From Acidimicrobiales bacterium (GTDB lineage Bacteria > Actinomycetota > Acidimicrobiia > Acidimicrobiales > SHLQ01), in NCBI GenBank assembly GCA_020628865.1, contig JAHDEJ010000022.1, positions 1 to 48,609 of the forward strand: DNA of 48,609 bases, read 5' to 3'. Position numbers and translations under genes: made by a program. Below, in pieces: positions 3,750 to 39,038 of this stretch (positions are counted from its first letter, which is position 1; each line of letters begins with the position of its first letter). Below the pieces are notes generated by a model that saw only the letters and a list, made by a program, of their open reading frames with translations, had not been told where the DNA came from and ran no database searches.

Positions 3750-5204
3750 TCAGGACACGACGTCGGAGACATCCTCCGAGAATATCGCCGCAGGAGCGTC
3801 CGTCTGGGGAAACCGAAGCTCGAATCTCGCCCCGCCGAGCGGGCTGTCGGTAACGGCCAGCGAGGCATCATGCTGCTCGGCGATGTTGGCGGCGATCGCA
3901 AGGCCGAGACCGGCGCCCCCGTCACCGACTCGACGCGAATCGTCCAGTCGGGTGAAGCGGCGGAACACCTCCTCACGTCGCTCGCGTGGAATCCCGGGAC
4001 CGTCATCATCGATACGGATCCTCGGTTCGCCCCGGATCGTGCTGCCCACACTGATCTCGACGCGAGCCTCGGCGTGGCGGGTGGCGTTGTCGACCAGGTT
4101 GGAGACGAGCCGCCGGAGCAGGCGCTCGCTTCCGGCCACGCGGCTGGCGGCACGAATCTGCACTGCGACTTCACAGGGGTGGTTGCGGGCAGCCTCTGCG
4201 ATGGCGAGCTCGTCGAGGTCGACCTCGTCGGATCGACGAACGCCCATCTCGTCGAGCTGCGCCAGGAGGAGGAGATCGTCGACCAGGCCGGCGAGCCGGT
4301 GCTGTTCCACGCCGATGGTCGCGGCAAGGGCCGGCCAATCCGCTTCGGAGCAGCGCTCGACGGACTCGATCGTGGCGAGGGTTGCCGTGATCGGGCTGCG
4401 CAGTTCGTGGGAGGCGTCGGAGATGAACTGGCGTTGTTGTTCTGCCGCCCGATCGAGACGATCGAGCATGTCGTTCATCGTTCCGGCGAGCCGGTCGACC
4501 TCGTCGTCGGTTCCCGTCTTCGGAACGCGGACATCGAGACGACCGAAGTCCGCCTGTTCGACCTGGAGGCGAATCGCCTCGACCGGACGGAGCGCCCGCG
4601 ACGTGGTCATCCAGGTGGCGGCGGCAACCAGCCCGGTCAGCAGCGGAAGGAAGGCCAAACCGGCGATGGTGATGGTGCGCACGGCGTCGTCGATGGGCCC
4701 GCGGGGCGACGAGAGTCCGACCGCGAGTTCGAGTTCGCCGATGGCGATCGGTGCGGCAACGGTGAGCGAGAACGGATCGACCTCGACGGGCATCGGGCTT
4801 CCCTGAACGGCCGTGAGCCCGGACCCCATCAGCGCAGCGATTTCAGCGGCCACGATCTCCTCGGCGATCTCCGGCGGAATTCGCGGACCGCCGAACATCA
4901 CGCCGTCGATTGCCTCGTCCGCTGGGAGGACCGGCGTCGATCGGATCAGCTCGTCGAACTCCTGCGCGGTGATCTGTTCTCCTTCGGCGTCGAAGAAGAC
5001 GAAGCTGCTGACGTCTGTCACCGGCGCTTCGGAGAGCGGGGCGAAGAGGATCTCCTCCAGCGCAGCTTCCGCGCGGGCCTGCACCTCCTGTTCGAGGGAC
5101 AGCTGCAGCCGATTCCGCACGATCGTGCCGGTGACCAGCAGGGTGACGGCGAACAGCACCGAGACGAAGACGGTGAGTCGGAAGCGAATCGAACGGTGAT
5201 TCAT
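3750..5204 (-). CDS. Sensor histidine kinase of a two-component system
   Basis: A 484-residue membrane kinase. There is a transmembrane helix at 9-29, an extracytoplasmic acidic sensor region of about 145 residues (30-175), a second helix at 177-199, and HAMP around 200-252. The HisKA phosphoacceptor H266 sits in SDASHELRSP. The HATPase_c domain shows an N box (NLVDNATRHA), G1 (DDDGPGIP) and G2 (GGAGLGLAI). The start ATG at 5204 overlaps the response-regulator stop by 4 bp (ATGA), so the two are translationally coupled. It would autophosphorylate and pass phosphate to D51 of the regulator. The sensor shows no recognisable ligand domain. The divergent efflux-like operon and the acidic lipoprotein beside it suggest an envelope or antimicrobial stress signal, as inference. 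Confidence 0.92.
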   Translation of the reverse strand: MNHRSIRFRLTVFVSVLFAVTLLVTGTIVRNRLQLSLEQEVQARAEAALEEILFAPLSEAPVTDVSSFVFFDAEGEQITAQEFDELIRSTPVLPADEAIDGVMFGGPRIPPEIAEEIVAAEIAALMGSGLTAVQGSPMPVEVDPFSLTVAAPIAIGELELAVGLSSPRGPIDDAVRTITIAGLAFLPLLTGLVAAATWMTTSRALRPVEAIRLQVEQADFGRLDVRVPKTGTDDEVDRLAGTMNDMLDRLDRAAEQQRQFISDASHELRSPITATLATIESVERCSEADWPALAATIGVEQHRLAGLVDDLLLLAQLDEMGVRRSDEVDLDELAIAEAARNHPCEVAVQIRAASRVAGSERLLRRLVSNLVDNATRHAEARVEISVGSTIRGEPRIRIDDDGPGIPRERREEVFRRFTRLDDSRRVGDGGAGLGLAIAANIAEQHDASLAVTDSPLGGARFELRFPQTDAPAAIFSEDVSDVVS

Positions 5205-5869
5205 CGGGCGAGCCGATAGCCGTGGCCGTGCACGGTGACGATGAGCGGCTCGTCCCGGCCGTTGTCGATCTTCTTGCGGAGATAGCCGATGTACACCTCG
5301 ACGATGTTCCTGCTGCCCTCGAAGTCCGGGCCCCACACCTGCTCGAGCAGGAACGACTTGCTGCAGGCCACACCGGGCTGGCGGGCCAGCACCTCGAGCA
5401 GCGTGAATTCCCGGTTGGTGAGCGCGACGTCCTCCCCCGCCCGGGTGCACGACCGGTGGTCGAAGTCGATCGCAAGGTCGCCAACCATCTGGACGACGGA
5501 CTGGCGCGGGCCGGAGCGCCGGAGCATGGCCCGGATGCGGGCGGCGAGCACGACGAACGAGAAGGGTTTGGTGAGGTAGTCGTCCGCCCCGGCGTCGAGC
5601 CCCTCGGCCTCGTCGAATTCTCCGGACTTCGCCGTGAGCATGAGGATCGGCGTCTCGACCCCATCGTGGCGGAGATCGGCGCACAGCTTGAACCCGTTGC
5701 GTCCGGGGAGCATCACGTCGAGCAGCAACGCCCCGTAGTCGGTCTCGGTCGCCATCCAGTAGCCGGTGTCGCCGTCCTCGGCGACGTCCACGTCGAAGCC
5801 CTCCGCTTGGAGGCCGCGGTGCAGTGCGGCGGCGACGGTGCTGTCGTCTTCGACCACGAGGATGCGCAT
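5201..5869 (-). CDS. OmpR/PhoB-family response regulator
   Basis: A 222-residue regulator. The receiver domain (1-115) has the acidic pair EDD at 7-9, phosphoacceptor D51 in LLLDVMLPG and the conserved Lys in YLTKPFSF. The C-terminal winged helix (about 125-220) ends in the typical YLRKKID...HGHGYRLAR motif. It is the first gene of the RR-HK pair and is transcribed away from the lipoprotein/ABC operon across a 126-bp gap. Phased TGAGA half-sites in that gap (5892-5950) are the obvious binding region, which would give autoregulation together with control of the divergent operon. Confidence 0.93.
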   Translation of the reverse strand: MRILVVEDDSTVAAALHRGLQAEGFDVDVAEDGDTGYWMATETDYGALLLDVMLPGRNGFKLCADLRHDGVETPILMLTAKSGEFDEAEGLDAGADDYLTKPFSFVVLAARIRAMLRRSGPRQSVVQMVGDLAIDFDHRSCTRAGEDVALTNREFTLLEVLARQPGVACSKSFLLEQVWGPDFEGSRNIVEVYIGYLRKKIDNGRDEPLIVTVHGHGYRLAR

Positions 5870-5891
5870 GGGCGAAGCGTGCCACGGGCTC

Positions 5892-5950
5892 CTGAGAACG
5901 ACCTGAGAGCGACTGAGATTGCGCCTCAGGCTGTCTCAGTCCGTTCTCAA
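5892..5950. promoter_or_regulatory. Phased TGAGA half-site array in divergent promoter
   Basis: Three copies of CTGAGA on the plus strand (5892, 5903, 5913; spacing 11 and 10 bp) are followed by three copies in the opposite orientation (CCTCAG 5924, TCTCAG 5934, TCTCAA 5945; spacing 10 and 11 bp). One-turn-spaced direct repeats are the usual binding sites of OmpR/PhoB-type regulators. The array lies between the start of such a regulator (5869) and the first gene of the divergent operon (5996). That it binds this regulator is inference. Confidence 0.7.
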
Positions 5951-5995
5951 TCCCGCCGCAGACCATGAGGGCTCCCCACACAAGGAGCCAATCCA

Positions 5996-6637
5996 ATGAC
6001 CCGTATTCGTACCCGCCTCCTGGCGCTGTGTTGTGCCGTTCTCCTCGTTGCCGCGGCGTGTTCATCCGGAGCTGAAACCACCACCGCCGAGCTTCCGACA
6101 CTCGCCGACACGACCTCGGAAACCACACCGGACGACGACGAGGCGACCGACGCGGCCCCCGAAGCGGAGGCCGATGACGCATCGGTCGACGAGTCAACCG
6201 AGGACGAGGAGGAGGTCGATCCGGAGATTGCCATGGCCGAGTACGAGAAGTGCATGGAGGAGCAGGGTGTGTCGATCTCCACGGCCATCGAAGGCGACGA
6301 GGGCGTCGGCTTCGAGACATTCGAGACCGACGGCGACGTCGGCGATACGGAGCTCTCCTCCGGCTCGTTCAACCCGGAGGACTTCGAGGCCGCAGCAGAG
6401 GCCTGCGATCCGATCCTCGAGGACGCGTTCGGCAGCTTCGAGATGACCCCGGAGCAGGAAGCCGAGATGGCGGACCAGATGCTCGAGCTGGAGAAGTGCA
6501 TGTCCGACCAGGGCTTCGACATCGACATGGGCGGCAACTCGTTCCAGATTGACGAAAGCATCGACTTCGAAGCGTTCGAAGCCGCCATGAGCGAGTGCGG
6601 CAATGGCATCTTCGAGCCCGTTGGGGTCGACGAATGA
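5996..6637 (+). CDS. Acidic lipoprotein with two Cys-pair repeats, first gene of efflux operon
   Basis: A 213-residue lipoprotein. The signal peptide ends in the lipobox VAAAC (Cys21), so the mature protein is lipid-anchored outside the membrane. A Glu/Asp/Thr-rich linker leads to two similar units. Each begins with E-(Y/L)-E-K-C-M-x-(E/D)-Q-G and has a second Cys 40-55 residues later (EACDP; SECGN), so two disulfides are plausible. A strong ribosome site (AAGGAG) lies upstream of ATG 5996. The stop overlaps the next start (ATGA). I know of KCM-x-x-(H/Q)-G lipoproteins beside peptidoglycan-binding adaptor/ABC operons in actinobacteria, but not of an established function. A role as extracytoplasmic partner or stress-signal component of the transporter is inference. 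Confidence 0.85.
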   Translation: MTRIRTRLLALCCAVLLVAAACSSGAETTTAELPTLADTTSETTPDDDEATDAAPEAEADDASVDESTEDEEEVDPEIAMAEYEKCMEEQGVSISTAIEGDEGVGFETFETDGDVGDTELSSGSFNPEDFEAAAEACDPILEDAFGSFEMTPEQEAEMADQMLELEKCMSDQGFDIDMGGNSFQIDESIDFEAFEAAMSECGNGIFEPVGVDE

Positions 6638-7704
6638 GCGGGCGAATTCGAGTTGCCGTCGGCCTGGCACTGGTGCTGGCCGCAACGGCTGCCGGCATCC
6701 TGCTCTGGCCGGACGCCAATGGTGCAGAGGTCGAGACCAGTGCTACGGCCCGAACCGCGATGGTTCCCACCGAGACCATCGAGGTGACACGCCGCGACCT
6801 TTCCGAAGAGGTCAAGCTCACCGGAACGGTGAGCCACGGCGAGGCGAACAGCCTGCCGATCGATGCCGACGGCCTCGTCACCAGCGCCCCGTCACAGGAC
6901 GACATCGTCCAACCGGGCGACGAGCTCATTCGCATCGACGACCGTCCGGTCACCCTTGCGGAAGGCTCGGTGCCGCTGTACCGCGAGCTGCGCCGCATCG
7001 GGCGCTACGAGGTCGATGAGGCCGGCGACAGGCTCGGCTTGCAGGAAGGTGAGGACGTGGCCCAGTTGCAGCGATTCCTGCTTTCGAAGGGTTTCGACGA
7101 TGAGGAGCGCCTGGAGGCCGATGGCATCTTCGGGATCACGACCGAGCGTGCGGTCAAGGCATGGCAGAAGGACCTCGGCGTTCCTGCGACCGGGAAGGTC
7201 GACCGATCGCAGCTCGTGTTCGTCGACGGCCCACGCCGTGTCGACGCTGCGCCGGAGGTCGGCATGCGCTTCGACCAGGTGACGGTTGGTGCCGTGACGC
7301 CGTCGATCCAGCTGGAGGTCAGCAGCCGGCAGCGGCCCTTCTTCACGGAAGGAACGAGCGTCTCCATCGAGTCCGATGCGGGCGAAGCTCCCGGCATCGT
7401 GACCGAGCTCAAGCGGACCACGGGAGCGGACGGTTCCACCCGTCATGCGGTGACGGTGGAATTCGTCGCCGACGCACCGGCCGGCCTGGAGACGACGGAC
7501 GTCGTCTCCACCCGGATCCTCGCGGAGAACGTGACCACCGTGCCGGTTCGGGCCTTGGTGGCATTGGCCGAGGGCGGCTGGGCCGTTCAGGTCGAAACGG
7601 ATGATCGACTCCAGCTGACTGCGGTCGATCTTGGAACGGTGGTCGACGGCATGGCCGAGATCGATGGTCTCGACGAAGGCACGCTCGTGGTGGTGCCGGC
7701 ATGA
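6634..7704 (+). CDS. Membrane-anchored adaptor protein with peptidoglycan-binding domain
   Basis: 356 residues. An N-terminal signal anchor (about 5-25) is followed by an HlyD/RND-adaptor-like beta-barrel and biotinyl-lipoyl-like region (near VTRRDLSEEVKLTGTVSHGE). A PG_binding_1 domain sits at about 130-190, around EGEDVAQLQRFLLSKGF and GIFGITTERAVKAWQ. A second beta domain follows, of the kind that links an inner-membrane pump to the envelope. ATG 6634 overlaps the lipoprotein stop; the frame is open upstream, but that segment lies inside the lipoprotein gene. The domain combination suggests an adaptor that tethers the downstream MacB-like ABC pump to the cell wall rather than to an outer membrane. 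Confidence 0.85.
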   Translation: MSGRIRVAVGLALVLAATAAGILLWPDANGAEVETSATARTAMVPTETIEVTRRDLSEEVKLTGTVSHGEANSLPIDADGLVTSAPSQDDIVQPGDELIRIDDRPVTLAEGSVPLYRELRRIGRYEVDEAGDRLGLQEGEDVAQLQRFLLSKGFDDEERLEADGIFGITTERAVKAWQKDLGVPATGKVDRSQLVFVDGPRRVDAAPEVGMRFDQVTVGAVTPSIQLEVSSRQRPFFTEGTSVSIESDAGEAPGIVTELKRTTGADGSTRHAVTVEFVADAPAGLETTDVVSTRILAENVTTVPVRALVALAEGGWAVQVETDDRLQLTAVDLGTVVDGMAEIDGLDEGTLVVVPA

Positions 7705-31750: not shown

Positions 31751-31864
31751 ACATGGCGAACGTGAGGGTTTCTTCAATTGCGCGCCCGTGGACCCCTCCA
31801 TCGCGCCTCGTTGCGCCTAACCTCAATGCATTCGGATGCGCTGTCCATCCATCGCAAGGACCTC

Positions 31865-32887
31865 ATGACCGGTAACGCCAACTTCACTTTCAACGATGTC
31901 GCCATCCTTTCCGTCGAGGCGATCACCGCTCCGGAGGTCGTCACATCGGCCGACATCGACGAACGTTTGGCACCGTTCTATGAACGCACGGGCGCGCAGC
32001 CCGGCCTTCTGCAGTCGCTCGCCGGTATCACCGAGCGACGCCAGTGGCAGGAAGGCATCTCGTTCATGGACGCCGCCGCCATGGCCGGCGAGAAGGCAAT
32101 CCAGTCCTCGGGGATCGACCGGTCTCGCATCGGCATCATCGTGGATTCCAGCGTGTGCCGCGAGCGGCTCGAGCCGTCCAGCGCCGTCGACGTGCACGAC
32201 CAGCTCGGCCTGCCGTCCACCTGCATGAACTTCGACATCGGCAACGCCTGCCTCGGCTTCCTCAACGGCATGCACCTGGCCGGTTCCATGCTCGAGTCCG
32301 GCCAGATCGACTACGCCCTCATCGTCGACGGCGAGGGCACCCGGGAGATCCACGAGAACACGATCAACCGGATTCTCCAGCCCGACTCCACGATCGACGA
32401 CCTCTTCTACAACTTCGCGTCGCTGACGCTCGGTTCCGGCTCGGCCGCCATGGTGCTCGGCCGCCACTCCGAGAACCCCGGCAGCCACCCGATGACCGGC
32501 GGTTTCTTCCGGGCGGCCACCGTGCACAACAACCTGTGCGTCGGTTCGCTCGAGGGCATGCGGACCGACACCCGTGGCCTGCTCGAAGCCGGTACCGAGG
32601 TGGCGAAGCTCGCCTGGGAAGACGCAGGTGAGAAGGAGGGCTGGTACGACATGAAGTACTACGTCCTCCACCAGATTTCGAAGGTGCACACGCAGGCGGT
32701 CATCGACACCCTTGGTATCGATGGTGATCGTGTGCCCCGGAGTTTCCCGGTGCTCGGCAACATCGGTCCAGCGGCGATTCCCATCACTCTGGCCGGCGTG
32801 CAGGACACGCTCGAGCCTGGCGATGGGGTGATGCTCCAGGGCATGGGCTCGGGCATCAACGCGGCGATCGTCAACCTGGTCTGGTGA
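31865..32887 (+). CDS. oleA: OleA, thiolase-fold acyl-CoA head-to-head condensing enzyme
   Basis: 340 residues, close to Xanthomonas OleA (338). Residues equivalent to its catalytic set are visible with matching spacing: E103 (RLEPSSA), nucleophile C129 (GNACLGF; E-to-C 26 residues as in OleA E117/C143), H269 (VLHQISK) and N299 (GNIGPAA; H-to-N 30 residues as in H285/N315). OleA joins two fatty acyl-CoAs by non-decarboxylative Claisen condensation to a 2-alkyl-3-ketoacid. ATG 31865 has AAGGA four bases upstream; an earlier ATG at 31826 lacks this. The stop overlaps the GTG start of oleBC. Confidence 0.92.
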   Translation: MTGNANFTFNDVAILSVEAITAPEVVTSADIDERLAPFYERTGAQPGLLQSLAGITERRQWQEGISFMDAAAMAGEKAIQSSGIDRSRIGIIVDSSVCRERLEPSSAVDVHDQLGLPSTCMNFDIGNACLGFLNGMHLAGSMLESGQIDYALIVDGEGTREIHENTINRILQPDSTIDDLFYNFASLTLGSGSAAMVLGRHSENPGSHPMTGGFFRAATVHNNLCVGSLEGMRTDTRGLLEAGTEVAKLAWEDAGEKEGWYDMKYYVLHQISKVHTQAVIDTLGIDGDRVPRSFPVLGNIGPAAIPITLAGVQDTLEPGDGVMLQGMGSGINAAIVNLVW

Positions 32888-35418
32888 CCTCCGAACCCGC
32901 TCGGCTTCCGCCCGCCGGCCTCGACGGCCTGGATCCGAGCTGGTCCCGACTGGTCACCGTCGACTCGCTCGACAACGGCCGCACCTTTCATGTCTTGGAC
33001 AACGGGGTCGCCGACCCGGCACTCACGCTGTTGTGTGTGCACGGCAACCCGTCGTGGTCCTATTTGTGGCGCCATGTGGTCGCCGCTGCGCCGGCCGACG
33101 TTCGCGTCGTCGCCGTCGACCATCTCGACATGGGCTTCTCGGAGCGAACGGGCGAGTTCCGGCGCTTGGCCACACGCATCGATGACCTGGCTGCGCTGAC
33201 CGACGCCATGGGCATCGCCGGGCCCGTCGTCACGGTTGCCCACGATTGGGGCGGGCCGATCTCGCTCGGTTGGGTCGCCCGCAATCGGGACCTGGTGAAG
33301 GGTGTCGTCCTGCTGAACACGGCCGTCCATCAGCCAGAGGGGTCGCCGGCACCTCGGGTCATTCGGGCGGTTCGGACGCGAGGCGTGCTCGGCCGGGCAA
33401 CGGTCGACACCACGGCGTTCATCCGGGGTGCGTTCGAGATGTCCGACCCGAAGCCGACGCAGGAGGTGCGGGCCGGGTTCCTCGCTCCATACGGTTCGGC
33501 CGAACGGCGGAAGGCAATCGGCCAGTTCGTCGAAGACATCCCGCTCGATCCGAGCCACCCGAGCGCCACCGCGCTCGATGCTGTGGCCGACAGCCTCACC
33601 GAACTCGCCGACACACCGACGCTGCTGATCTGGGGCGCGAACGACAAGGTGTTCAGCGACCTGTACCTGCACGACCTCGAGGACCGGCTCCCCCACGCCG
33701 ACGTCCACCGTCATCCCAAGGCCGGCCACTTCGTGTCCGAAGATGTGGATGCAGCCGGCACGATCATGGACTGGGTCGGCTCGCTGGATGCTCCGCCCGC
33801 CGATGAGCTGCAGATCGACCATCTCGATTCGCTCGCCGATTCGTTGGCCGAACCGTCGATCGCCGAGCTCGCCGCGGTGATGGAGATGGGCGAGTCGTTC
33901 GATTCGATCGACTTCGGCCCGCTCGCCGACCGGATCGAGCAGACGGCCCGAGGCCTGCTCGCGACCGGCGTTGCCCCCGGTGACCGGGTGGCCCTCATGG
34001 TGCCACCCAGCATCGATCTCGTGGTCGCTCTGTACGCGTGCTGGCGGATGCGAGCCGTTGCCGTCTTGGTGGACTCCGGCCTCGGCCCGAAGGGCATGAG
34101 CGCCGCCATGCGATCGGCGGCGCCCGATCATCTCATCGGCATTCCGAAGGCGCTCGCCGCCGCTCGTGCACTCGGCTGGCCGGGCCGGCCGATCTCGACC
34201 GTGCCGCTCTCGAAGGTGCAGCAGCGGGTGTTGGGCTCATCGGTCGACCTGCCGTCGATCCGCTCCGAGCTCGCCACACCCCTGCCCGAGCCGACCATCG
34301 ACGATCCGGCCGCCGTCGTCTTCACGTCCGGGTCCACCGGCCCCTCGAAGGGCGTGTTGTACACGCACGGCCGCATCGACGCCCAGAAGCGGGCGATCAT
34401 GGAACTCTTCGACATCACGTCGGACGACCGCCTCGTGGCCGCGTTCGCGCCCTTCGCCCTCTATGGCCCGGCGATGGGCATCACCTCCGTCGTACCCGAC
34501 ATGGATGTCACCGCACCAGCGACGCTCACAGCCGTTGCCCTGGCCGACGCAGCCGTGGCTGCCGACGCCACCATGGTGTTCGCATCACCCTCGGCGCTGA
34601 CCAACGTGTTGCGCACCAAAGACGAGCTCTCGGCATCGCACCGCCTCGCCTTTGCCGACGTCCGGTTGGTGATGAGCGCCGGCGCTCCCGTGCGCCCGTC
34701 GCTCCTCCACGAGGTCGGCGAGCTCTTCCCGAACGCGAAGGTGCACACGCCATACGGCATGACCGAGGCACTCCCAGTGGCAAGCATCGAGCGGCATGAC
34801 GTGGCCGCAGCGACCGGCGGCGACGGGGTCTGCGTCGGTCAACCGTTGGCGGGCGTCGAGGTTCGCATCCGTCCGCTCGATGCCGATCCGGGCGACATCG
34901 TGGACACTCCAGGAGTCATCGGCGAGGTCGTGGTCCGAGCCGCCCATGCTCGCAACGGCTACGACCGCCTGTGGCACACGACCCACAAGGCGAGTCAGCC
35001 GGCCGGCTGGCATGCCACCGGCGATGTCGGCCACCTGGACCCCGAGGGTCGCCTGTGGATCGGCGGACGCCTCGGGCACGTGATCGATGCGCCGTCGGGT
35101 CCAGTCACGCCGGTCGCTCCGGAGCAGCAGCTCGAGGATCTGCCGGGTGTCACCATGGCCGCCGTCGTCGGCGTCGGTCCGACCGGTGTCCAGCAGTTGG
35201 TTGCGGTGTTGCAGGTCGACGATGCCGACAAGGCCCCTCGCTTGGCTTCGATCGAGCGCATCGACGCCGCTCGCGCCGCGGTCGATCACGACCTGGTTGC
35301 CGTGTTCGAAGTCCCGAAACTCCCGGTCGACCAGCGGCACAACGCAAAGATCGATCGAGCGGCCGTTGCGGCGTGGGCTGCGGCGGCGCTCTCCGGCGGA
35401 AAGGTCGGGTCGCTGTGA
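32884..35418 (+). CDS. oleBC: OleBC fusion: beta-lactone decarboxylase plus beta-lactone synthetase
   Basis: 844 residues in one frame. Residues 1-305 are the OleB alpha/beta-hydrolase, haloalkane-dehalogenase-like: HGNPSWSY (53-60), nucleophile D121 in AHDWGGP, acid D254 region and H282 in KAGHFV. From about 320 there is the OleC ANL domain with AMP-binding loop VFTSGSTGPSKG (479-490) and YGMTE. OleC closes the 2-alkyl-3-hydroxyacid to a cis beta-lactone using ATP; OleB removes CO2 to yield the cis-olefin. OleBC fusions are known in actinobacteria such as Micrococcus. GTG 32884 and the terminal GTGA overlap couple it to oleA and oleD. Confidence 0.92.
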   Translation: MTSEPARLPPAGLDGLDPSWSRLVTVDSLDNGRTFHVLDNGVADPALTLLCVHGNPSWSYLWRHVVAAAPADVRVVAVDHLDMGFSERTGEFRRLATRIDDLAALTDAMGIAGPVVTVAHDWGGPISLGWVARNRDLVKGVVLLNTAVHQPEGSPAPRVIRAVRTRGVLGRATVDTTAFIRGAFEMSDPKPTQEVRAGFLAPYGSAERRKAIGQFVEDIPLDPSHPSATALDAVADSLTELADTPTLLIWGANDKVFSDLYLHDLEDRLPHADVHRHPKAGHFVSEDVDAAGTIMDWVGSLDAPPADELQIDHLDSLADSLAEPSIAELAAVMEMGESFDSIDFGPLADRIEQTARGLLATGVAPGDRVALMVPPSIDLVVALYACWRMRAVAVLVDSGLGPKGMSAAMRSAAPDHLIGIPKALAAARALGWPGRPISTVPLSKVQQRVLGSSVDLPSIRSELATPLPEPTIDDPAAVVFTSGSTGPSKGVLYTHGRIDAQKRAIMELFDITSDDRLVAAFAPFALYGPAMGITSVVPDMDVTAPATLTAVALADAAVAADATMVFASPSALTNVLRTKDELSASHRLAFADVRLVMSAGAPVRPSLLHEVGELFPNAKVHTPYGMTEALPVASIERHDVAAATGGDGVCVGQPLAGVEVRIRPLDADPGDIVDTPGVIGEVVVRAAHARNGYDRLWHTTHKASQPAGWHATGDVGHLDPEGRLWIGGRLGHVIDAPSGPVTPVAPEQQLEDLPGVTMAAVVGVGPTGVQQLVAVLQVDDADKAPRLASIERIDAARAAVDHDLVAVFEVPKLPVDQRHNAKIDRAAVAAWAAAALSGGKVGSL

Positions 35419-36386
35419 AAGTCCTCGTGACGGGCGGAACGAGCATGATCGGCCGTGCCGTGATCGAGGCGCTCGTGCAGCGCGGCGACGACGTGACCTC
35501 GCTGCAGCGGGGCGATGCAGATCTGCCGGGCACGATGCTTCGCGGGTCGATCACCGATGCAGACGTGGTGGCTGCGGCCGTCGCCGGCCAGGACGCCATC
35601 GTCCACCTTGCGGCTCGGGTGGGCGTGACCGGCCCGTGGGACGAGTACGAGTCGATCAACGTCGGCGGAACCCGAACCCTCATCGCAGCGGCTCAGGCTG
35701 CTGGCGTCTCCCGGTTCGTCCACGTGTCGTCACCGTCGGTCGCGCACACGGGGGCATCGATCGTCGGGGATGGCGCCACCCCAGCCACGCCCGATGCGGC
35801 CACGAGCCACTACTCGCGCAGCAAGGCGATGGCCGAGGTCGAAGCGCTTGCTTCCTCGAGCGATGCCATGCCGATCGTCGCCATCCGCCCGCATCTCGTG
35901 ATCGGCCCGGGAGACACCCAACTCATCGAGCGCATCGTGGATCGTGCCCGATCCGGTCGGCTCCCACTCATCGGCTCCGGCCTGGCCCTCGTCGACGTCA
36001 CGTGGATCGACAATGCCGCTGGGGCCCTGGTCGCCGCCGTCGATGCAGCCCCCGACCTCGGTGGCCGGGCGCTCGTGGTCACCAACAACGAACCGCGCAC
36101 CGTCCACGAGCTCTTCGCCCGGATCGCGGCTGCGGCAGGTGTTGACTGGTCGCCTCGCAACGTTCCGGCCGCGGTCGCCATCGCCGGTGGTGGTGTGGCG
36201 GAGAAGGTGTGGGAACGCACCGGCCGCACGGACGACCCGCCGATGACGGCGTTCGGCGCCGAGCAGCTTTCGACCGCCCACTGGTTCGACCAGAAGGAAA
36301 CCCACGAGGCGCTCGGCTGGATGCCGACCGTGAGCCTTGCAGACGGTTGGGATCAGCTGGGCAACTGGTTCCGCAACCAGTCCTGA
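35415..36386 (+). CDS. oleD: OleD, NAD(P)H-dependent 2-alkyl-3-ketoacid reductase
   Basis: 323 residues, an extended SDR/epimerase-fold protein. The Rossmann motif is VLVTGGTSMIGRAV, with an Asp-containing IVHLAARVG, catalytic Ser region VHVSSPSVAH and the YSRSK Tyr/Lys pair. OleD reduces the OleA product to the 2-alkyl-3-hydroxyacid that OleC lactonises. Its position directly after oleBC, with a 4-bp GTGA overlap, supports the assignment over a sugar epimerase or 3-beta-HSD. The end overlaps the convergent DUF3179 gene by 34 bp. Confidence 0.9.
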   Translation: MKVLVTGGTSMIGRAVIEALVQRGDDVTSLQRGDADLPGTMLRGSITDADVVAAAVAGQDAIVHLAARVGVTGPWDEYESINVGGTRTLIAAAQAAGVSRFVHVSSPSVAHTGASIVGDGATPATPDAATSHYSRSKAMAEVEALASSSDAMPIVAIRPHLVIGPGDTQLIERIVDRARSGRLPLIGSGLALVDVTWIDNAAGALVAAVDAAPDLGGRALVVTNNEPRTVHELFARIAAAAGVDWSPRNVPAAVAIAGGGVAEKVWERTGRTDDPPMTAFGAEQLSTAHWFDQKETHEALGWMPTVSLADGWDQLGNWFRNQS

Positions 36387-37447
36387 TACGACTCGACCGG
36401 GGACCGTAGACCCCAGGCCCCCTCCAGGAAGTCCGCATCCTGCAAGCTCTCGGCGGGCTGGAAACCGCCGTCGGTCCAGATCCGTCCATCCGGGAAGATC
36501 TCGATGTAGTCCGACGGGAAGGACGAGAACGCCGGAAGGCGGTCGAGCGGCCCGGACCCATCGGTGGCGGTGCCGCGAAGCAGCTCGAACGTCCGGCCCG
36601 ATGCAATGTCCACGAGCGCACCGTTGCGCACCTCGAGCTCGATCGTCTCGCCGTCGAAGATGCGGGAGTAGACGACCCACTGCTCGGTGTCCGGGTCGAC
36701 GACGATCGCAAGCGGTTCGCCACCCACGATCGCCTGCACGATCCCGACCTCGACCAGGTCCCGGATCGGGACAGCGAGCGAGTCGTCGCCGACGGCGGCA
36801 ACCACCGCCGTGGAACCGACCTCGAAACCACGAGGCACCGAACCGACGTTCAGCGCCCGGGTGTCAGGATGCAGGGTTCGCCAGTCGTCCCAGGTGGACA
36901 GCGTGGAGGGCAGCAGATCGAGTCGCTCACCGGTGAGCGGGCCCATGATGGCTTCACCGGTGGGTTGGCTCCAGACGCTGCCGGTGTCGTGGTCGAACCA
37001 GGTCATGGCGTTGTGCCACAGGTCGCCCTGATTGCCGAACACCACCGGCTCTCCGTCGATCTCTCGGCGATGCACCATCGCCGTTGCGCACAACGGTCAC
37101 CAGGTGACGAGTGTGGGTATGCCCCGATGGTTGTCGATCACCATCTCCCGCCGCGTCAGGAACCCGACCGGGTAGGCGCGAGCCTCCCCGTCGATGTCCA
37201 CGCCGATCACCAGCTCGTCGCCCGGCCAGTCCACGCCGTCGGCCGTGGTGAACGAGGGTTCGTAGACGGGGTTGATCGCGTCACGCGGCAGCGACTCGCG
37301 GTAGTTGTCCGGCGGGTCCTCGGTGTCCGTGGGGTCGGGCAGGTCGGGGAACAGCCCGCCGCGCGCGCCGGTCGACAGGTCGTTGCCGCACGCGGTGGCG
37401 AACAGGGCCAGAACGAGCAGGACGATGAGTGCCGGACGGATGCGCAC
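36353..37447 (-). CDS. DUF3179 lipoprotein with in-frame TGA at the CPLC motif (candidate selenoprotein)
   Basis: Read through one TGA (37097-37099), the frame gives 364 residues. A lipoprotein signal (FATAC, Cys20) is followed by a DUF3179 domain: RAYPVGFLTRREMVIDN, then IPTLVTW-[TGA]-PLCATAMVHRREIDG and VFGNQGDLWHNAM..VWSQ. Family members read VTYCPLCG at this point, so the TGA replaces the first Cys and would give U117-P-L-C120, a UxxC redox motif. Reading frame and homology are continuous on both sides and there is no indel. A hairpin directly follows the TGA. Alternatives: a nonsense mutation in a dying gene, or a sequence error (TGC to TGA). DUF3179 has no assigned biochemistry. GTG 37447 is the best start but lacks a clear ribosome site. 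Confidence 0.7.
37065..37099 (-). promoter_or_regulatory. SECIS-like hairpin directly after the in-frame TGA
   Basis: Downstream of TGA 37099-37097, nucleotides +14 to +21 (CGGCGATG) pair perfectly with +25 to +32 (CATCGCCG): an 8-bp stem with loop GTG, or 7 bp with loop GGTGC. Bacterial SECIS elements lie inside the coding region just after the UGA and need a G among the first two apical-loop bases about 16-37 nt downstream; here it is at +21/+22. A competing small hairpin pairs +1 to +6 (CCGTTG) with +11 to +16 (CAACGG). Structure is seen; recognition by SelB is inference. Confidence 0.55.
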
Positions 37448-37553: not shown

Positions 37554-39038
37554 ATGACCTCCTCCCTCCTCTCCTGGTACCTCGAGCACGCCGGCCTGCT
37601 GTTCGGCATCTGCATCGTCACGGCCGTCGTCGGCGAGAAGCTCGCTCGGTGGGCGGCCGGCGCCGACCTCGAGCTGCGCAGCACCGCCACATCCATTATC
37701 TCGGGCGGCACCTTCCTCGTGGTGAAGACGGTGTTGGGCAAGGTGCTGTTCCTCGGCGCAACGCTCTGGATCTACGAGAACCATCGCCTGTTCACGCTCG
37801 ACCTCGGCAATCCGCTGGTGTGGCTGGGCGTCTTCTTGATGCGCGACGCCGTCTACTACTGGGTGCATCGGGCCGAGCACACGTTCAACGTGCTGTGGGC
37901 GTCGCACCTCGTGCACCACTCCCCCGAGACGATCGGCATGGCCACGGCGGTTCGGGTCCCGTGGATGGAGGCGATCTACAAGCCATTCTTCAGCCTGTGG
38001 CTTCCGCTGGTCGGCTTCAACCCGCTCGCTGCGGTCGGCATGGATGTGTTCGCCGCCACGCTCAGCCAACTCCAGCACACCGAGCGGTTCCGCAACGGCT
38101 CGACAAGCCTCATCGGCAAGGTCTTCGTGACCCCGTCCACCCATCGGGTCCACCACGGCTACAACGCCGAGTATCTCGACAAGAACTTCGGTGCCGTCCT
38201 CATCATCTGGGATCGCATGTTCGGCACGTACGAGCCCGAGGTTGCCGAGGTGAAGTTCGGTGTCGGCGAGGACGACCGCGTCGTCACCGGTGCCGATGCA
38301 CTGAAGGGCGGCTACCCCCGCCTGTTCGCTGCCGTCGCTGCCACGAGCGGGTTCCGCAACCGCATGGCGATCCTGTTCGGCCGGCCGGGCACCCTGCCGA
38401 AGTCGGCGTCAGCCGCCGGCGAGATGATCCCGAATGTGGTTCCGGTTCACGCGGAACTCGGCGTCGATCTCCTGGATTTCGAGGGACCATGCGATGACGA
38501 GCGGACTGTCCTCCTCGGCGAAACGGGCCTCGGCGGCGTCGAGCACGGCGGCGATGACCCGCTGTTTGGTCTCGGCGTCCCGACCGGGACCGAACCGAGC
38601 GATCATGGCCACGTAGGCGAGGTTCTCGCTTCCGTCGGCGATCCGGTATTCGTCCTGGCGAATGCCGCGGATGCGCACACCGGGAACCGGGGCGACGTCC
38701 AGCTCGAGAATCGTCTGATGAACGACGTCGAGCAGCGCCTCGATGTCGTGATGTTCGGCGACGTTGGCGGAGTACTCCACGATCATGTGCGGCATGCATG
38801 CAGGATAGGTTGGTCGCCACACACCACCCATCACTGCAAGGAGCATCATGCGCGCCCTTCTCTCCACCGATCCCGGCGGACCCGAGACCCTGACCATCGA
38901 GGATCTTCCGGAGCCGGAGGCGACCGAGGGGCACGTGGTGGTCGATGTGAAGGCCGTGAGTGTGAACTTCCCCGATGTGCTGATCATTCAGGACATGTAT
39001 CAGGTGAAGCCGCCCCGCCCGTTCTCGCCCGGGTCTGA
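37554..39038 (+). CDS. Sterol desaturase/fatty acid hydroxylase-family membrane protein, 3' end abnormal
   Basis: The conserved part is residues 1-283 (to about 38400). It has several membrane helices and the di-iron histidine clusters HRAEH (105-109), HLVHH (118-122) and HRVHH (197-201) of the ERG3/FAH family, which use O2 to hydroxylate or desaturate lipid chains or sterols. No stop occurs in frame until 39038; the last ~210 residues have no family character and run antisense through the isomerase gene and into the oxidoreductase gene. The normal end should be near 38400-38430 (a stop exists at 38425 in the next frame), so a small indel or lost stop is likely. Exact substrate unknown. Confidence 0.75.
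   Translation: MTSSLLSWYLEHAGLLFGICIVTAVVGEKLARWAAGADLELRSTATSIISGGTFLVVKTVLGKVLFLGATLWIYENHRLFTLDLGNPLVWLGVFLMRDAVYYWVHRAEHTFNVLWASHLVHHSPETIGMATAVRVPWMEAIYKPFFSLWLPLVGFNPLAAVGMDVFAATLSQLQHTERFRNGSTSLIGKVFVTPSTHRVHHGYNAEYLDKNFGAVLIIWDRMFGTYEPEVAEVKFGVGEDDRVVTGADALKGGYPRLFAAVAATSGFRNRMAILFGRPGTLPKSASAAGEMIPNVVPVHAELGVDLLDFEGPCDDERTVLLGETGLGGVEHGGDDPLFGLGVPTGTEPSDHGHVGEVLASVGDPVFVLANAADAHTGNRGDVQLENRLMNDVEQRLDVVMFGDVGGVLHDHVRHACRIGWSPHTTHHCKEHHARPSLHRSRRTRDPDHRGSSGAGGDRGARGGRCEGRECELPRCADHSGHVSGEAAPPVLARV
38409..38795 (-). CDS. 5-carboxymethyl-2-hydroxymuconate isomerase-like protein (tautomerase fold)
   Basis: 128 residues. It begins MPHMIVEYSANV, the family start in which Pro2 becomes the catalytic N-terminal proline after Met removal. 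The rest (IRGIRQDEYRIADG, VAMIARFGPGRDAETKQRVIAAVLDA) fits the CHMI/HpaF tautomerase family, which isomerises a ring-cleavage product in homoprotocatechuate degradation. No other pathway gene is adjacent, so the natural substrate may differ. ATG 38795 is fixed by the Pro-1 requirement. It is divergent from the oxidoreductase (52 bp) and convergent with the desaturase. Confidence 0.82.
   Translation of the reverse strand: MPHMIVEYSANVAEHHDIEALLDVVHQTILELDVAPVPGVRIRGIRQDEYRIADGSENLAYVAMIARFGPGRDAETKQRVIAAVLDAAEARFAEEDSPLVIAWSLEIQEIDAEFRVNRNHIRDHLAGG

Follow-up and report, generated by a model that had tools for sequence, protein, structure and literature searches.

A predicted selenoprotein clade of the DUF3179 family in Acidimicrobiia and Chloroflexota, with a possible extracytoplasmic redox function

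DUF3179 (PF11376), with the motif UxxC/T, is listed among the prokaryotic selenoproteins (PMC9312934, PMC13188914). The reviews trace this listing to the work of Zhang and Gladyshev 2007 on the Delta 1 symbiont of Olavius algarvensis (PMC9312934, PMC13188914). An earlier note on the DNA described here had regarded DUF3179 as a family not known to include a selenoprotein. Since the reviews list it with UxxC/T, this kind of selenoprotein was already known. For selenoproteins of Acidimicrobiia nothing was found in the open-licence literature, and an earlier mention elsewhere is possible.

The window, i.e. the whole stretch of 48,609 nucleotides that was analysed (contig JAHDEJ010000022.1 of an Acidimicrobiales bacterium), contains on its minus strand (37447-36353) a frame of 365 codons with a single internal TGA at codon 117. 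The features of the gene are the following (all on the minus strand).

36353..37447, minus strand: predicted Sec-containing DUF3179 gene, GTG start, 364 residues including Sec117
37388..37447, minus strand: signal peptide with lipobox-like LFATAC (Cys20), recognized in the sequence
36827..37294, minus strand: first domain, holding UxxC, Rieske-like fold predicted by the structure model
37097..37099, minus strand: in-frame UGA, predicted selenocysteine (residue 117), from translation and homologue alignment
37088..37090, minus strand: TGC coding for Cys120 of the U-P-L-C motif, invariant in alignments
37065..37083, minus strand: bacterial SECIS hairpin with 8 bp stem and apical loop GUG (37073-37075), from conservation and the published model
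36500..36859, minus strand: second, homologous domain lacking Cys, Rieske-like fold predicted by the structure model
36353..36355, minus strand: true TGA stop of the gene, from translation

When the TGA was read as Cys, the protein matched Pfam DUF3179 (PF11376) with 168.9 bits (gathering cut-off 27). The match spans both sides of the TGA, and in the whole-genome search it was reported with '1 TGA' inside. Translation and alignment to homologues confirmed that the TGA takes the position of the first Cys in C-P-L-C and that the second Cys is retained, giving UxxC. The lipoprotein N-terminus proposed together with this motif was also found, as the lipobox-like stretch listed above; in some other DUF3179 members the N-terminal hydrophobic helix lacks the lipobox Cys. 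The source genome has two further DUF3179 genes (L001 and L002), both with plain Cys (CPLC). On the plus strand the gene is flanked by a convergent olefin biosynthesis-like cluster (31778-36386) encoding an OleA-like synthase (ACP_syn_III), a fused hydrolase/AMP-binding protein as in OleBC and an OleD-like 3Beta_HSD dehydrogenase, and by a divergent fatty acid hydroxylase (PF04116) gene (37554-39035).

Scanning public genome contigs with the single protein found no relative, but scanning them with a DUF3179 alignment yielded 80 loci. In the aligned homologues from these contigs the codon corresponding to the TGA of the window was TGA in 70 cases, TGC in 12 and TGT in six, and no other codon occurred. 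One of the scan patterns lay away from the TGA site and the other was written for Cys, so the majority of TGA is not a sampling effect. Among 297 genomes of the same order, nearly all of the nearest relatives (44-55% identity) have an internal TGA, and among the matches listed three genomes carry two TGA-bearing copies each. In all extracted TGA-bearing copies the TGA occupies the identical residue, and in none of the 59 members that have the peptide TAMVHRR does the core contain a Cys besides that of UxxC. The occurrence of TGA at this codon is far beyond chance. TGA differs from a Cys codon by one base. The earlier note had named a point nonsense mutation as the main alternative, and a sequencing error in an ordinary Cys-type gene belongs with it. 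However, the TGA is common to 70 sequences from many assemblies whose proteins are 39-57% identical and whose downstream coding sequence is conserved. Its presence in all these homologues excludes a nonsense mutation and its recurrence in independent assemblies a read error, which leaves this explanation with practically no probability.

Searches for selA, selB, selC and selD found all four in the source genome. It encodes a tRNA-Sec with the anticodon TCA, and selA is directly followed by selB. The selD gene (L083, 1501-2424) carries a TGA in its active site (GAG-TGA-GCK), so that SelD of this genome is predicted, from its sequence, to be a selenoprotein itself. SelA was present in 13 of 13 TGA-carrying relatives checked. 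SelB was found in 163 of the 297 genomes of the order (threshold E 1e-70) and, among the matches listed, in 14 of 14 TGA carriers, the source genome included. The probability of finding SelB in all 14 carriers by chance is about 2e-4 if the genomes are taken as independent, although they are related. The frame is open on either side of the TGA, as it would also be if the source genome used TGA as a codon for Trp or another amino acid. But the gene itself ends with TGA, as do several of its relatives, the site alternates with Cys codons only and never with Trp, and the TCA anticodon is borne by tRNA-Sec. Reassignment is refuted by the gene's own TGA stop and thus vanishingly improbable.

Downstream of the UGA a hairpin was found in which columns 17-24, counted from the UGA, pair with columns 28-35 around a G-U-N loop. 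In the window the hairpin has 8 bp and the loop GUG, lies 21 nt from the UGA and has a stability of -11.7 kcal/mol. It satisfies all constraints of the bacterial SECIS model quoted in PMC13188914, from which we took them. By itself the sequence of the window is weak evidence, since 2.5% (25/1000) of synonymous recodings of this gene gave an equally stable hairpin; the case rests on conservation. Over 66 sequences 99.4% of the stem cells were paired (14-57% in slid controls), with compensatory changes on both sides in two stem pairs. In L129 the stem is kept by compensatory changes that alter the protein from TAMVHRR to TGMVHSR. The codons ACG, GCG and CAT for the peptide TAMVHRR were used in 59 of 59 cases, while their frequencies elsewhere in the same genes were 0.30, 0.28 and 0.32. 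The strict published model was passed by 67 of 74 Sec members; of the remaining seven, L112, L113 and L158 have one stem mismatch and four are Chloroflexota sequences with a different hairpin. Of the five Chloroflexota members whose hairpin is of the CCGGUC type, four break the strict loop rule. An Rfam search of the region returned only two sub-threshold chance matches. The SECIS prediction suggested in the earlier note thus gave a hairpin that fits the published model and is under selection.

The shared TGA, the Sec machinery and the conserved hairpin together strongly support the selenoprotein reading, and we estimate a probability of roughly 0.93 that the gene product is a secreted selenoprotein of the DUF3179 family, anchored in the membrane. 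SelB with Sec-tRNA would decode the internal UGA, aided by the hairpin just downstream, and the read-through product would carry U-P-L-C in the first copy of a duplicated Rieske-like domain. In known bacteria Sec insertion competes with termination, and the UGA could therefore serve mainly as a conditional stop, the main product being a short lipoprotein and the Sec read-through form being made in small, regulated amounts. The second domain is, however, conserved in all members, indicating that the full-length product is under selection, and such a role of the UGA appears very improbable. Standard gene callers truncate the gene at its internal UGA, and mis-annotation is therefore likely throughout this clade of secreted proteins.

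The history of the Sec site was followed on a quick, unrooted FastTree tree that was built from 138 DUF3179 sequences after this site had been masked. At least seven changes between Sec and Cys were required, six of them forced by well-supported branches. One clade comprises 65 Sec and three Cys members; it is acidimicrobial and occurs also in Chloroflexota. Records labelled Acidobacteria or Spirochaetaceae that are nested in it may be mis-binned. Sec lineages outside this clade comprise Chloroflexota sequences and two distant subfamilies (L090/L091 and L089), with hairpins of their own. In these subfamilies TGA stands at the same site (L089 3305-3307, L090 3276-3278, L091 3270-3272; motifs YUTLC and YU[VG]VC). 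In L125 (about 4827-7157) a Cys and a Sec copy lie in tandem and the Cys copy has retained the SECIS hairpin, which suggests a recent change from Sec to Cys. The Sec clade thus supplies Sec/Cys pairs for comparison, including this tandem pair.

By hhalign the two protein halves are homologous to each other (99.4%, E 3e-21). Structure models were confident (pLDDT 85 for the whole protein, 96 for the first domain). With these predicted models the VIA-align matches listed for either half were Rieske-type proteins (best Z 9.8 for the whole model and the second half, 8.5 for the first half), and the best Foldseek E value was 4.6e-3. The models thus suggest a duplicated Rieske-like domain for DUF3179, the first copy holding UxxC. 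A sequence search of the PDB gave nothing significant, and in profile comparison of both DUF3179 domains with the Rieske domains of the source genome hhalign probabilities were 1.2% and 6%, which are not significant. We therefore make no claim of homology to Rieske proteins and, for the same reason, gave up mapping UPLC to the cluster loops of Rieske domains. In the alignments the CxH and CxxH cluster ligands are absent, and the only conserved Cys/Sec residues are U117 and C120, with no second Cys pair.

Within 5 kb flanks no universal neighbour gene was found. TlpA-like and DsbD_TM genes occur near seven members, and in 15 loci (L158 5681-6442 and 14 others) a membrane protein without Pfam match is encoded near the Sec gene, mostly directly downstream. 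From the Rieske-like models without ligands, the core with Sec and one Cys, and the TlpA/DsbD_TM neighbours we infer an extracytoplasmic selenenylsulfide site. The Sec117 selenol and Cys120 would form an extracytoplasmic selenenylsulfide/selenol-thiol couple, which in some relatives a TlpA/CcdA-type thiol relay would reduce, and the Cys form of DUF3179 would substitute for the Sec form. This scheme stands at about even odds, and the redox role that it implies draws on a few neighbourhoods.

Cys/Sec pairs also bind soft metals. The UxxC of the selenoprotein might then bind metals or metalloids, for example Hg or Cu, rather than cycle through a selenenylsulfide, and many metal-linked selenoproteins are noted in a review. 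Inspection by eye of the 25 recurrent neighbour clusters listed showed no metal-resistance gene, and thiol-relay genes are present at seven loci, so that we consider metal binding unlikely. The wider proposal, in which DUF3179 acts outside the cytoplasm as a selenol/thiol redox enzyme and consists of two duplicated Rieske-like domains that lack the cluster, with Cys and Sec swapped several times at the reactive site in the members from Acidimicrobiia and Chloroflexota, is put forward tentatively, the odds being somewhat against it as a whole. With its Sec residue, DUF3179 shows where its reactive atom is likely to lie, and the function of the family thereby becomes testable.

In the models both DUF3179 halves resemble the Rieske [2Fe-2S] domain (PF00355) in predicted fold, but significant profile similarity and the CxH...CxxH ligands are lacking. 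The Cys-type proteins, such as the two CPLC proteins of the source genome, have the same domain and the CxxC position; they differ in that Cys replaces Sec, and the hairpin is mostly absent in the Cys forms listed. The closest described system is the listed DUF3179 selenoprotein, which belongs to the same Pfam family, has Sec in UxxC/T and is likewise a computational prediction. The deltaproteobacterial proteins MBW1804167.1 and MDJ0986319.1 are named for it in the reviews. The locus described here belongs to a clade of Acidimicrobiia in which 65 members have Sec and a conserved SECIS of their own. This large clade, also represented in Chloroflexota, with its SECIS, the two further Sec lineages, the repeated change between Sec and Cys and the predicted duplicated Rieske-like fold seem to extend what the reviews list.
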